A DNA stretch of 49,672 nucleotides from Byssovorax sp. (GTDB lineage: Bacteria > Myxococcota_A > Polyangia > Polyangiales > Polyangiaceae). Below the pieces are notes generated by a model, which ran no database searches, was not told where the DNA came from, and was given only the letters and a program-made list of their open reading frames with translations. The stretch lies in the NCBI GenBank assembly GCA_025362495.1, contig JANYGI010000230.1, positions 1-49,672 on the forward strand, in the 5' to 3' direction. Position 1 is the stretch's first letter, and every line of letters starts with the position of its first letter. This document shows positions 23,312-28,370 of this stretch, in pieces. The translations under genes and the position numbers were made by a program.

Positions 23312-23398
23312 GGCCGCCTCCCTGGCGATTTCATGCGCAGGGGCGCGGCCGAGCGCCACCGGGGAGCCGCCCGACCCGCGCGCGATTGCGCACGGCAG

Positions 23399-23428
23399 TG
23401 GACCTCGACCGCCCGGTTTGGCTAGGAT
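23399..23428 (+). promoter_or_regulatory. candidate sigma70-like promoter of the ATP-grasp operon
   Basis: TGGACC (23399-23404) and TAGGAT (23423-23428) are 18 nt apart. Transcription would begin near 23435, giving a short leader before the GTG at 23461; this supports that start over the TTG at 23386, which would lie upstream of the transcript. Confidence 0.42.
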
Positions 23429-23460
23429 TGACGCTACATGTCATCGAGAGGCCTACGCTA

Positions 23461-24969
23461 GTGGAGGGATCGTCGACGCAGGCGCAGTTCCAGGCGCCGG
23501 AACCCGGCCCCTCACGGGGCCTCTTCACCGACTACCCGAGCGAACCCGGCGCCTACGACGAGCTCCTCGACGAGCACGGGGCTCCCCGCGCCGCCTTTCG
23601 CCGCGCCATCGCCCTCCTCGGGGCGCGCTCGAGCGACGAGCTCGCCCGGGCGCAGGCGCTCGCCGAGCTCTCGCTGCTCAACCAGGGCGTGACGTTCTCG
23701 GTCTACTCGGACAACCGCGGCGCCGAGAAGATTTTCCCCTTCTGCCTCGTGCCGCGGATGGTCGCGTGGAACGACTGGTCGCGCCTGAAGAGCGGCCTCG
23801 AGCAGCGGGTCCGCGCCATCGGCCTCTTCCTCGACGACGTCTACGGGCCGCAGAAAATCCTCGCGCAGGTCCCGCTGCTGCGTGACCTCGTGCTCGGCGC
23901 GAAGCTCTACCTGCCGAAGCTCCGCGGCGTGCGCCCGCCCGGCGGCGTGCGGCTCCACATCGCCGGCATCGATCTCATCCGCGATCACGAGGGCACGTTC
24001 CGCGTGCTCGAGGACAACCTCCGCACGCCGTCCGGCGTGTCGTACGTGATCGAGAATCGCTTGATCACCAAGCGAATCTTCCCCGAGGCCTTCGAGGAGG
24101 CCCGCGTCCACCGCGTCGATCACTACCCGACCCGCCTCGCCGAGACGCTCCGCTCCGTCTCGCCCGAGGATCCCGATCGCGCGACCTGCGTCGTGCTCAC
24201 GCCCGGGCCCTACAACTCAGCCTATTTCGAGCACAGCTTCCTCGCGCGTACCATGGGGATCGAGCTGGTGCAGGCCGCGGATCTCTTCGTCGACGACGAC
24301 CAGGTCTTCGTGCGAACGACGCGCGGGCCGCGGCGCGTGCACGTGATCTACCGGCGCGTCGACGACGCGTTCCTCGATCCCGAGGTGTTCCGACCCGACA
24401 GCCTCCTCGGCGTGCCCGGCCTGATGCGCGCCTACGCCGCGGGCAACGTCGCGGTCGCCAACGCGCCCGGCAACGGCGTCGCCGACGACAAGGCGGTGTA
24501 CGCGTTCGTGCCGGAGATCATCCGCTATTACCTCGGCGAAGAGCCGATGGTGGAGCAAGTCCCCACGTTCCTCTGCGGCCGCGACGACGATCGCGCGTAC
24601 GTGGTCGACAACCTCCATCAGCTCGTGGTCAAGGCCGTCGACGAGGCCGGCGGCTACGGGATGCTGATGGGCCCCTCGGCAAAGCAGGCCGAGATCGACG
24701 ACTTCCGCCGAAGGATCCTGGCCGATCCGCGCCGCTACATCGCCCAGCACCGCGTCGAGCTCTCCACCTGCCCGACCTGGGACGCCGACAAGCGGGTGAT
24801 CGCGCCGCGCCGGGTCGATCTGCGCCCGTACATCCTTTCGAGCCCGGAAGGGCCGTGGGTGCTCCCGGGCGGGCTCAGCCGCGTCGCGCTGCGCGAGGGC
24901 TCGTACGTCGTCAACTCGAGCCAGGGCGGCGGCTCGAAAGACACCTGGGTCCAGAAGGAGCCGGCATGA
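23461..24969 (+). CDS. circularly permuted type 2 ATP-grasp protein
   Basis: About 502 residues of the circularly permuted ATP-grasp family (DUF404/DUF407). Typical segments are NQGVTFSVYSDNRGAEKIFP, GLFLDDVYGPQKILAQ, AGIDLIRDHEGTFRVLEDNL, RTPSGVSYVIENR, GNGVADDKAVYAFVPEIIRY and KAVDEAGGYGMLMGP. ATP-grasp enzymes join a carboxylate to an amine through an acyl phosphate; this family is predicted to make peptide-like products, as it is almost always encoded with alpha-E and transglutaminase genes, as here. The GTG at 23461 is the most likely start (AGAGG about 12 nt upstream and a promoter just before it). Its stop overlaps the alpha-E start as ATGA. Confidence 0.9.
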   Translation: MEGSSTQAQFQAPEPGPSRGLFTDYPSEPGAYDELLDEHGAPRAAFRRAIALLGARSSDELARAQALAELSLLNQGVTFSVYSDNRGAEKIFPFCLVPRMVAWNDWSRLKSGLEQRVRAIGLFLDDVYGPQKILAQVPLLRDLVLGAKLYLPKLRGVRPPGGVRLHIAGIDLIRDHEGTFRVLEDNLRTPSGVSYVIENRLITKRIFPEAFEEARVHRVDHYPTRLAETLRSVSPEDPDRATCVVLTPGPYNSAYFEHSFLARTMGIELVQAADLFVDDDQVFVRTTRGPRRVHVIYRRVDDAFLDPEVFRPDSLLGVPGLMRAYAAGNVAVANAPGNGVADDKAVYAFVPEIIRYYLGEEPMVEQVPTFLCGRDDDRAYVVDNLHQLVVKAVDEAGGYGMLMGPSAKQAEIDDFRRRILADPRRYIAQHRVELSTCPTWDADKRVIAPRRVDLRPYILSSPEGPWVLPGGLSRVALREGSYVVNSSQGGGSKDTWVQKEPA

Positions 24970-25931
24970 TCTCGCGCGTCGCCGATCACTGCTTCTGGTT
25001 CGGTCGTTACCTGGAGCGGGCCGAGAGCTGCGCGCGGGTCCTCCAGGTCACGAGCAGCCTCGCGCTCGACACCGAGCTCACCCAGGAGCAGTGCTGGCTC
25101 CCGGTGATCATCGTCGCCGGCGAAGAGGCCCGCTTCCTCGAACGGCACGGCGAAAAGGCCTCTGCCGACGGCGAGGCCGTGCAGCGCTACCTCACCTGGG
25201 ACGAGGGCATGGCCTCGCTCCGCCACGCGGTCTGCGCCGCGCGCGAGAACGCCCGATCGATCCGCGAGGTGGTGAGCCTCGAGGCCTGGGAGGCCGTCAA
25301 CGAGCTCTACCTGTGGATCACCGGCAAGGCCGGTCGCGAGGCCTACGAGGCGCACCGTTATGGCTTCTACCTGCACGTGCGCCGCGCGGTGCAGCTCTCG
25401 CTCGGCTTGCTCCGCAGCACGATGCTCCACGACACGCCCCTCGATTTCATCTGGCTCGGCGTGATGCTCGAGCGCACCGGGCAGACGGCGCGCGTGCTCG
25501 ACGTCCACCACCACGTGCTGGCCCCCGTGGCCTCGCGTCATCAGGTCGTCGACACGGCGCTGTGGCTGGCGCTGCTGCGCGCGTGCTCGGGCTTCGAGCC
25601 CTTCATGAAGCGCAACCCCGGCCGCGTGACCGGCGCGGCCGTCGCGTCGTTCCTGCTGCTCGAGCCCTCGTTTCCACGGTCGATCCGCTTCTGCGTCCAC
25701 GCGGCGCACGACTGCCTGAGCGCGATCCGCCCGCCCGGCGCGTCGTCGCTGCCCGGCGGCGAGAGCGTGGCCCGCCTCGGCGAGCTCGACGAGTGGGTGC
25801 GCCAGCGCGGCGTCGCGGACGCGCAGGCCGGTTCGATTCATGCTGTCTTGACCCACATCGTGGACGAGACGGCCTTCATTGGTAATCTCGTCTCGCGCGA
25901 GCTCTTCGGTGTCAGCGCTGTGCCGGCCTGA
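24966..25931 (+). CDS. alpha-E domain protein
   Basis: A 321-residue, wholly helical protein of the alpha-E family (DUF403). It starts MISRVADHCFWFGRYLERAE, the family signature, and continues with RENARSIREVVSLEAWEAVN, FYLHVRRAVQLSLGLL and WLGVMLERTGQTARVLDVHHH. The conserved R-x-x-E-R-A-E and R-E-N-A-R patterns could hold a metal or act with the ATP-grasp partner. The biochemical role is not established; the constant link with permuted ATP-grasp and transglutaminase genes suggests a subunit or modifying enzyme of the same product. The ATG overlaps the upstream stop, so translation is coupled. It ends 18 nt before the next gene. Confidence 0.9.
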   Translation: MISRVADHCFWFGRYLERAESCARVLQVTSSLALDTELTQEQCWLPVIIVAGEEARFLERHGEKASADGEAVQRYLTWDEGMASLRHAVCAARENARSIREVVSLEAWEAVNELYLWITGKAGREAYEAHRYGFYLHVRRAVQLSLGLLRSTMLHDTPLDFIWLGVMLERTGQTARVLDVHHHVLAPVASRHQVVDTALWLALLRACSGFEPFMKRNPGRVTGAAVASFLLLEPSFPRSIRFCVHAAHDCLSAIRPPGASSLPGGESVARLGELDEWVRQRGVADAQAGSIHAVLTHIVDETAFIGNLVSRELFGVSAVPA

Positions 25932-25949
25932 TCTCGCCTTCATTCCATC

Positions 25950-27674
25950 ATGCCCAATCTGCTCGCGATGTCCTTCGAGGGCGATCTCGTCCCCTCGTTC
26001 AACCTGCGTTGCCTCCAGGAGCCCGGGAAAGCGCCGGACGGCTGGGGCCTCGGTTACTATCCTGCCGGCGAGCCGGCAGCCTCGGTGATCAAGGAGGGCG
26101 CCCCGACCGAGGGGAGCCGCCGCGCCACGATCATCCCGGGCTGGGATCACCTCGCCGGATCGGTGTTCTTGCTCCACCTGCGCACCGCGAGCTGGGGTGC
26201 GGCGACGGCGGCCAACACCCAGCCTTTCCTGCGCAGCCACGGTGGCCGTGATCTCCTGTTCGCGCACGGCGGCAGCCTCGAGCGTCGCCTGGCGCCCCTC
26301 GCGAACGCGGCCTTCGAGCCCGTGGGATCGACCGACAGCGAGATCATCTTCTGTCGCCTGCTCAGCCTGCTCGCGGCCTCCGGGACACGGACTCTCGACG
26401 AGCTCGATCCCGTGGTGTTCAGCCGCTGGCTCGCCGATCTCAACGCGCAAGGCAGCCTGACCCTCGCCATCACCGACGGGCACTCTCTCTTCCTCTACGC
26501 CGACGTCAACGGCCACGGCGAGCTCCACCTCGCCCACCTCGCCCCGCCCTATGCGCAGGTGCAGCTCACCGATCCCGATCTCGAGGTCGATCTCACGAGC
26601 CACGGCGTCAAGCGACCGAAAGGCATCCTCGCCTGCTCCACGCCGCTCGAGGTGAGCGCCGATGTCGCCGTCACGTGGAGCCGGGTCGACCCGGGTCATC
26701 TCCTCGTGATCCGGGAGGGGGCCATTCACGCCGACCACACCCCGAGCGGGACACTCGCCGACACCTCCCCTGCGCGCCCGAGGCAGCCTGTCCGCGCCGC
26801 CGTGAAGTGCCTCGACGTCCGCCATCGCACCGTCTACCGTTATGGAAACCCGGTCGAGAAGAGCTTTCACCTGCTCCGCGTCGTGCCTTTTCACGATCGG
26901 ATGCAGAGCGTCCTCGAGCACAATCTCTTCGTCTCCGTCGGCGGGCAAGAGGTCGAGTACGAAGACGTCTTCGGCAACCAGGCCCGCAAGATCCACATTT
27001 CCCAGCCCTTCACCGAGCTGGTGATCGACGCCCGCTCGAAGGTCGAGCTGCGCGACGTCGATCCGCTGAGCTTCCGGCGGCTGCGCACCCGCACCACGAT
27101 CCCGCTGGTGTGGATGCCCTGGCAGCGCCACATGCTCCAGCCGTACCTGCTCCCGCCCGAGCTCCCCGAGAACCAGCTCGTGGATCTGACCGAGTACGCG
27201 ATGAGCTTCGCCCGCCGCAACGACGACGATCTCATTGACACGCTGCTCGACGTCAACGCCACGATCCACAAGGAGTACGCGTACCGCCAGGGGTCGACCA
27301 CCAACGCCACCACGGCCTACGAGGTGTTCTCGATGCGCCAGGGCGTCTGTCAGGACTTCGCCAACCTCTTCATCTGCATGGCGCGCCTGCTCGGCGTGCC
27401 GGCGCGGTACGTGTGCGGCTACCTCTACACGGGGCCGAAGCACGAGAATCAAGCCCAGGCCGAGGCGTCGCACGCCTGGGCGCAGGTGTATCTCCCCGAG
27501 GTGGGCTGGCGCGGCTTCGATCCGACCAACGGAGTCCTGACCCAGACTGACCACGTGAGAGTGGCAGTCGGGCGGAGCTACGTCGACGCCACTCCGACCG
27601 GAGGCGCCATCTTCCGGGGCGGCGGCGGCGAGATGCTCGAGGTCGCGGTCACCTGCGAGCTCGCCCCGGACTGA
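25950..27674 (+). CDS. class II amidotransferase-like domain fused to transglutaminase
   Basis: A 574-residue fusion. Residues 1-265 follow the class II (Ntn) glutamine amidotransferase pattern of YafJ-like proteins: MPNLLAMSFEG, DGWGLGYY (30-37), HLRTASWG (76-83), NTQPF (89-93), FAHGGSL (104-110) and VGSTDSE (125-131). The catalytic Cys2 is Pro2, and the oxyanion Asn of HNG is Gly107, so ordinary glutamine hydrolysis is not expected. Residues about 287-574 are a bacterial transglutaminase-like module with its N-terminal beta domain (LDVRHRTVYRYGNPVEKSFH) and a complete Cys467 (GVCQDFANL), His508 (ASHAWAQVY), Asp524 (GFDPTN) triad. It is third in the ATP-grasp/alpha-E operon, where these peptidase-like domains are thought to trim or transfer the amide-linked product. 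No ribosome-binding site is evident. Confidence 0.88.
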   Translation: MPNLLAMSFEGDLVPSFNLRCLQEPGKAPDGWGLGYYPAGEPAASVIKEGAPTEGSRRATIIPGWDHLAGSVFLLHLRTASWGAATAANTQPFLRSHGGRDLLFAHGGSLERRLAPLANAAFEPVGSTDSEIIFCRLLSLLAASGTRTLDELDPVVFSRWLADLNAQGSLTLAITDGHSLFLYADVNGHGELHLAHLAPPYAQVQLTDPDLEVDLTSHGVKRPKGILACSTPLEVSADVAVTWSRVDPGHLLVIREGAIHADHTPSGTLADTSPARPRQPVRAAVKCLDVRHRTVYRYGNPVEKSFHLLRVVPFHDRMQSVLEHNLFVSVGGQEVEYEDVFGNQARKIHISQPFTELVIDARSKVELRDVDPLSFRRLRTRTTIPLVWMPWQRHMLQPYLLPPELPENQLVDLTEYAMSFARRNDDDLIDTLLDVNATIHKEYAYRQGSTTNATTAYEVFSMRQGVCQDFANLFICMARLLGVPARYVCGYLYTGPKHENQAQAEASHAWAQVYLPEVGWRGFDPTNGVLTQTDHVRVAVGRSYVDATPTGGAIFRGGGGEMLEVAVTCELAPD

Positions 27675-27680
27675 AGCAGC

Positions 27681-28370
27681 TCAGTCGACGAGGGTGAGCC
27701 GGTGCGCGTCTTCGTCGCGGCGGCGAGCCGAGTCGAGGAGCAGATGGAGCAGCGGCACGTCGATGGTCCGCTCGGCGAGCGAGGGGGCCTCGGCGATCTC
27801 GATCGTCGGCTCTTGCCACCCGAGGATCTCGTGGACGGCGTCCACGCCGTGCACGCCCTTGCACTCGGCGTGGATGACCTCGCCCGACTCGCAGTGGAGC
27901 TCGCCGAGGCGGCCGCCGGAGACGACGCGGAGCGAGCAGGTCTTGCGCTCGAGGTTGAGGATCTGGAGCAGGCCCGCGAGGGTGATCCCCTCGATGTGCC
28001 CCCTGGCGCGCTGGGCGAGCTTCTCGCGGACGAGGTGCGGCAGCGCCGCGAGATCGCGCGGCTTCTCGAGGTAGGTCGCGCCGAGCTCCTTCAGGTGCTT
28101 GCGCGTATCCGACGTCCCGTAGGCCGTGAGCACGATCACCGGCATCCGCGCGTGCGCGCCCATGAGGTGCGCGAGCAGCGCGAAGCCGTCGAGCACCGGC
28201 ATGCTGAGATCGGTCACGACGAGATCGACGGGCGACGTGTAGAGGACGTTGATGGCCTCGCGGCCGTTCGCCGCCTGCACGATCCGGTAGCCCTCTTCCA
28301 TGTCTTCGAGGAGCTCCGCCAGCGCACTGCGGATGGCCTCGTCGTCTTCCACCAGGAGAATTACCTTCAT
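27681..28370 (-). CDS. response regulator with DUF4388 output domain
   Basis: A 229-residue protein. Residues 1-120 are a receiver domain: ILLVEDDEAIRSALAELLED, phospho-acceptor Asp in LVVTDLSMPVLDGFALL, Thr in VIVLTAYGTSD and a Lys-Pro pair in YLEKPRDL. Residues about 128-225 are a DUF4388 (PATAN-like) domain (IEGITLAGLLQILNLERKTC, then GRLGELHCESGEVIHAECKG), common in myxobacterial and other signalling proteins and thought to mediate protein contacts rather than DNA binding. The ATG has AAGGAG eight bases upstream. It lies 43 nt downstream of the degenerate hybrid kinase on the same strand, forming a two-gene unit, and converges on the transglutaminase gene with a 6-nt gap. Confidence 0.92.
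   Translation of the reverse strand: MKVILLVEDDEAIRSALAELLEDMEEGYRIVQAANGREAINVLYTSPVDLVVTDLSMPVLDGFALLAHLMGAHARMPVIVLTAYGTSDTRKHLKELGATYLEKPRDLAALPHLVREKLAQRARGHIEGITLAGLLQILNLERKTCSLRVVSGGRLGELHCESGEVIHAECKGVHGVDAVHEILGWQEPTIEIAEAPSLAERTIDVPLLHLLLDSARRRDEDAHRLTLVD

Follow-up and report, generated by a model that had tools for sequence, protein, structure and literature searches.

A class II amidotransferase-like domain without its cysteine nucleophile, fused to a transglutaminase encoded beside ATP-grasp and Alpha-E genes

The closest described system is the stand-alone YafJ-type amidotransferase (1te5), which shares the fold of the domain studied here, its DGWG, NTxPF, HxG and GSTDSE motifs, and its residues Arg78 and Asp129. 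EgtC, the γ-glutamyl Ntn hydrolase of ergothioneine synthesis, is an active enzyme of the same fold (4zfl, Z 19.5), and its C2A variant has been solved with the natural substrate. β-Lactam and carbapenam synthetases possess an N-terminal class II-like domain that lacks a working Cys and is joined to an asparagine synthetase-type synthetase; they are structurally distant from our protein (fold-match Z 11.7 and 9.6). In other bacteria, as outlined in excerpts of PMC6376114 and PMC5666114, genes for an ATP-grasp ligase, an Alpha-E protein and a transglutaminase occur together in an operon with Anbu, itself an Ntn-fold particle. A role in peptide synthesis or tagging has been proposed for the trio, and the same excerpts give no established physiological substrate for this module.

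The protein described here departs from each of these systems. Unlike YafJ-type enzymes, it has neither Cys2 nor Asn107, has Gln in place of His91 and a fixed Trp82, and is fused to a transglutaminase. It scores 28.3 bits against the EgtC model, whose cut-off is 218.65, and thus falls outside that family. Its partner domains are Bact_transglu_N and Transglut_core, with no synthetase, which sets it apart from β-lactam synthetase. In contrast to the Anbu operon, the Ntn fold here belongs to an amidotransferase-like domain on the same chain as the transglutaminase, and the window genome (240 contigs, assembly 96.6% complete) yielded no match to the Proteasome family (PF00227), so the locus does not qualify as an Anbu operon. 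The fold family and the module are already known, and inactive class II domains have been considered before. Among the papers that literature searches listed, no title or abstract opening describes an amidotransferase–transglutaminase fusion or its lost Cys, although Iyer et al. 2009, cited for the module, may mention it. What the locus adds is a nucleophile-less class II domain that is fixed clade-wide, keeps its substrate-side residues and shares a chain with the transglutaminase from a module found widely.

Gene, operon and fold

The window, meaning the whole stretch of 49,672 nucleotides analyzed, contains the following features:

23386–24969, plus strand: circularly permuted ATP-grasp ligase (start as listed mechanically)
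24966–25931, plus strand: Alpha-E protein, its stop 18 bases before the start of the fusion gene
25950–27674, plus strand: GATase_4–transglutaminase fusion gene, 574 aa, stop included (coding part to 27671)
25950–25955, plus strand: start ATG and Pro2 codon CCC
25950–26744, plus strand: class II amidotransferase-like domain, lacking Cys2 and Asn107 and retaining Arg78, His106, Gly108 and Asp129
26811–27047, plus strand: Bact_transglu_N domain, residues 288–366 (Pfam match)
27213–27524, plus strand: Transglut_core domain, residues 422–525 (Pfam match), with Cys467, His508 and Asp524 intact

GATase_4 spans residues 1–265 of the fusion protein (Pfam, E 1.3e-61), and its score of 208.3 bits against a curated cut-off of 23 places the domain firmly in the family. 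The substrate-side Arg and Asp that mark GATase_4 are present as Arg78 and Asp129, and the residues required for class II amidotransferase catalysis are absent, residue 2 being Pro and residue 107 Gly. Both replacements, of Cys and of the Asn in the HNG motif, are as the first-pass annotation had claimed, and the YafJ-type homology it proposed is real: in a sequence comparison with solved structures up to E 1, 1te5 alone was matched (E 5.8e-16). The transglutaminase half is complete, with both Pfam matches and a Cys467–His508–Asp524 set that we take to be the catalytic triad; these columns are intact in 59/59 fused and 32/32 unfused transglutaminase sequences.

The encoded N-terminus is Met-Pro-Asn, because the ATG at 25950 is the first ATG, GTG or TTG past the preceding in-frame stop. 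An upstream start that would yield Met-Cys, the objection considered capable of overturning the Pro2 assignment, fails for want of any in-frame ATG, GTG or TTG between that stop and 25950. Met7 was likewise rejected as the true start, since this position is not conserved (24 Met, 5 Leu and 1 Val among 30 Pro2 rows). A 939-aa open frame on the minus strand (24735–27554) lies antisense to most of the operon and is probably no more than a by-product of G+C-rich codon usage. Downstream, a response regulator with a DUF4388 domain (27681–28370, minus strand) is convergent with the fusion gene.

The predicted model of the domain has a mean pLDDT of 82.2, with residues 51–61 and 81–88 falling below 50 and adjoining or lying in the presumed pocket. 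Its best structural match is 1te5 (Z 27.8, 2.6 Å, 241 residues), followed by PurF-type enzymes, EgtC and GlmS. The structural alignments begin at model residue 2; on the side of the solved chain they begin at residue 1 for PurF and GlmS, at residue 2 for EgtC and at residue 3 for 1te5. The full-length model reached a pTM of 0.58, too weak for the arrangement of the two domains.

The gene neighborhood recurs. Among 39 fused-type loci, the examined stretch contained both an ATP-grasp ligase and an Alpha-E protein at 26, Alpha-E without ATP-grasp at 2 that are cut by a contig end, and neither at 11, the stretches having unequal flanks. Alpha-E was detected in 13 of 112 genomes of the phylum, 8 with a fused-type match and 5 without, which indicates that the module also runs without the amidotransferase-like domain. 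A second module in the window genome (G000:C145, L108) comprises a 1,137-aa open reading frame with a transglutaminase match, a single 919-aa open reading frame for both ATP-grasp and Alpha-E, and a transglutaminase that lacks the amidotransferase domain. One idea is that the amidotransferase-like Ntn-fold domain has replaced Anbu. The absence of PF00227 from the window genome fits; across the 59 genomes searched, PF00227 matches occurred in 17, and 5 of these (G037, G047, G048, G052 and G053) also hold the fused protein, their matches being either HslV or Anbu.

Residue 2 across the phylum

We searched 377 genomes from the phylum of the window with a profile (E 1e-30) and inspected all 91 places that matched, in 74 genomes: 48 were fused-type and 43 stand-alone YafJ-type. 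All 43 stand-alone frames stop soon past the domain and have no transglutaminase match. Cys2 was present in 41/41 stand-alone places with a complete N-terminus (the remaining 2 are cut before residue 2) and in none of the 48 fused-type places, of which 21 have Pro, 24 have Ser or Thr and 3 have Ala or His at this position. The partition has no exception, but it amounts to few evolutionary events and not to 89 independent ones. The fused-type count includes three incomplete places: G114:C63, assigned by similarity because its contig ends before any transglutaminase part, G213:C155, truncated where its contig ends, and G244:C10, which has an in-frame stop. The window genome has its own stand-alone YafJ-type gene (L001, contig C30), beginning Met-Cys-Glu-Leu-Leu-Gly.

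Other collections were also searched. One scan of genome_contigs gave 11 relatives, including one protein identical to that of G243, a genome of the window's phylum. Matches occurred in 328 plasmid records, the best 25 of the 328 mainly over the transglutaminase part, and none of the 328 spanned at least 80% of the fusion protein. Three places were found in viral_contigs, none with a fused transglutaminase; two begin Met-Cys and the third (L119) is cut before the N-terminus.

We then built a maximum-likelihood tree of 70 amidotransferase domains, comprising 30 Pro2, 13 Cys2 and 27 Ser/Thr/other rows, the last all fused or cut by contig ends; L119 was left out. The residue alignment omitted the partial L037 and L084, of which L037 likewise has Pro2, with Ser at 107. 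The 30 Pro2 rows form a single clade to which no row with a different residue 2 belongs (one change, support 100/100), and the 13 Cys2 rows form a single group (one change, support 100/99). Invariance of Pro2 within its rows follows from how the rows were chosen; the non-circular fact is the unity of the clade. Of the two residues whose conservation among homologues was to be checked, Pro2 is confined to this one uniform clade, and Gly107 is not conserved even there: residue 107 is Ser in 20/30 Pro2 rows, Ala in 8/30 and Gly, as in the window, in only 2/30.

Within this clade, pairwise identity ranges from 43 to 97% (median 54%), a start codon stands directly before Pro2 in 30/30 rows (ATG 22, GTG 6, TTG 2), and Pro2 is encoded by CCG in 19, CCC in 10 and CCA in 1. 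The first-pass annotation had offered two readings, an imine-forming N-terminal nucleophile or simply a binding domain. Methionine aminopeptidase normally removes a Met ahead of Pro, which would expose the Pro, and a uniform yet divergent clade, three Pro codons and a start codon adjacent in every row are consistent with a catalytic amine that forms imines or serves as a general base, as in tautomerases, and brings new chemistry to the pocket. Yet the trait is limited to one clade, the rest of the fused family has Ser/Thr or Ala/His at the same place, several members with no start just before it, the oxyanion Asn is lost, and the module suggests no carbonyl substrate. A catalytic Pro2 is thus very improbable in our judgment, and it is hardly probable that the amine, at the former Cys site, acts on a head group held by Arg78 and Asp129 and feeds the fused transglutaminase, which would constitute secondary-amine chemistry in an Ntn fold. 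The binding-domain alternative fits these observations better.

The remaining fused proteins raise a different question, namely whether a hydrolase of Ntn or other type persists with another nucleophile, Ser/Thr2 outside the Pro2 clade and some other residue within it. Seven relatives (L016, L017, L023, L071, L075, L077 and L079) combine Ser2 or Thr2 and a possible start just before it with intact Asn107, Arg78 and Asp129, although L075 is cut by a contig end and L023 has an additional, earlier start; judged by these residues, they might be active class II enzymes with a Ser/Thr nucleophile, which would be unusual for the class. Ser and Thr serve as nucleophiles in other Ntn families, and the part of PMC9140057 that says so gives class II amidotransferases with Cys only. 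Asn107 varies, being present in 14/24 Ser/Thr rows, and Pro2 has no side-chain nucleophile. We regard continued hydrolysis by a different nucleophile as very improbable. Several non-Pro2 fused proteins have no start codon directly before the Ser/Thr place, so that the residue would be internal. In L018, L069, L021, L023 and L066, of which L023 and L066 are one gene, the frame is open upstream with a common R/L-E-H-Q/K directly before the Thr2 place, and Thr2 may there be internal unless the chain is cleaved.

With YafJ as the outgroup, every fused row lies on one side of the domain tree. In the transglutaminase-domain tree, rooted on a distant unfused sequence, the ancestor of the 59 fused sequences holds just one extra row, L022 (support 0.94), which retains a stub of the amidotransferase domain. 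The simplest account is a single fusion, with Cys lost at or before it; a YafJ-type class II domain would then have been without its nucleophile by the time it was joined to a transglutaminase in an ancestor of these bacteria. The midpoint-rooted domain tree draws Pro2 beside Cys2 and not beside Ser/Thr, a placement compatible with an alternative history in which Cys may have been lost twice.

Pocket residues and the role of the domain

The 13 YafJ-type sequences have 37 invariant columns, and at 18 of these all 30 Pro2 rows carry the identical residue, Arg78, His106, Gly108 and Asp129 included. Arg78 and Asp129, kept in 13/13 Cys2 rows as well, are presumably the holders of the α-carboxylate and the α-amino group, respectively, roles that we carry over from PurF and GlmS work. 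The other side of the pocket has changed: relative to YafJ, the Pro2 clade has Pro for Cys2, Gln fixed for His91, Ser, Ala or Gly for Asn107, and a fixed Trp82; positions 82, 91 and 107 are taken to line the pocket by analogy with PurF and GlmS. The earlier claim that the pocket was kept therefore needs dividing. Its two substrate-side residues are retained, in the window protein and in 30/30 Pro2 rows, and the presumed wall at residues 82, 91 and 107 is altered. Elsewhere in the fused family the two residues are less secure, Arg78 being absent from 9/27 and Asp129 from 4/27 non-Pro2 rows (Asn107 is present in 14/27), so that some fused proteins have the domain but not the Arg/Asp cradle. Residue patterns thus suggest a pocket under tight conservation in the Pro2 clade and looser conservation in the rest of the fused family.

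Judged from its sequence, the domain is most likely non-catalytic and would be unable to liberate ammonia from glutamine as class II enzymes do. A class II pocket without its Cys can nevertheless hold a ligand, as indicated by the PDB titles of EgtC C2A with its natural substrate (4zfl) and GlmS C1A with glutamate (3ooj). We favor, with moderate confidence, a pseudo-amidotransferase that would bind an amino-acid or γ-glutamyl head group. In the Pro2 clade, the Arg and Asp that would hold the head group are fixed while the wall at the former reaction center has been rebuilt (Pro2, Trp82, Gln91 and a small residue 107), a combination that may accommodate a ligand larger than, or different from, glutamine. 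The bound head group might be presented to the intact transglutaminase on the same chain or used to gate it, and the likely partners of that transglutaminase are the products of the two genes immediately upstream, the ATP-grasp ligase and the Alpha-E protein. Should the dead domain have kept a ligand, binding assays could retrieve it, and its identity would name the substrate class of the module.

The main alternative is a purely structural domain that binds no small ligand and serves as an oligomerization or docking scaffold for the transglutaminase or for ATP-grasp/Alpha-E. The divergent fused branch L088–L091 points this way, since it has lost His106 and Asp129 in 4/4 members and Arg78 in 3/4 and still retains the fused domain, as do the 9 of 27 non-Pro2 rows missing Arg78. 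A scaffold, however, needs none of Arg78, His106, Gly108 and Asp129, and all four persist in every one of the 30 Pro2 rows at a median identity of 54%. We consider a scaffold unlikely, though a serious contender.

Selection on the domain and its local losses

The amidotransferase-like domain is maintained under purifying selection like that on the adjoining transglutaminase. Estimates of dN/dS were 0.02–0.32 for the domain and 0.02–0.31 for the transglutaminase part in 8 usable pairs of 12, 6 of them Pro2, with some dS values near 1 and so close to saturation. In the 30 divergent Pro2 rows, 34 of 265 columns are invariant, Pro2 being so by choice of rows. Simple decay of a dispensable domain would account for the loss of two catalytic residues, for the near absence of the domain in one genome and for an in-frame stop in L084. 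Within the Pro2 clade it is contradicted by selection equal to that on the transglutaminase, and we hold it to be extremely improbable. The view that the Cys loss is not mere decay is thereby borne out, by this selection and by the contrast between 0/48 fused-type and 41/41 intact stand-alone places.

Two local losses accompany this picture. In the G026 lineage (genome 91% complete, 8% contaminated), nearly the whole domain has apparently been dropped: L112 (G026:C402, 2514–3779, minus strand) encodes a transglutaminase preceded by no more than the tail end of the amidotransferase domain, and the 1.5 kb upstream contains no match to the remainder. In L084 (G244:C10), the in-frame stop of the fused gene falls inside the amidotransferase domain, and the same genome has a second, divergent fused copy (L090).
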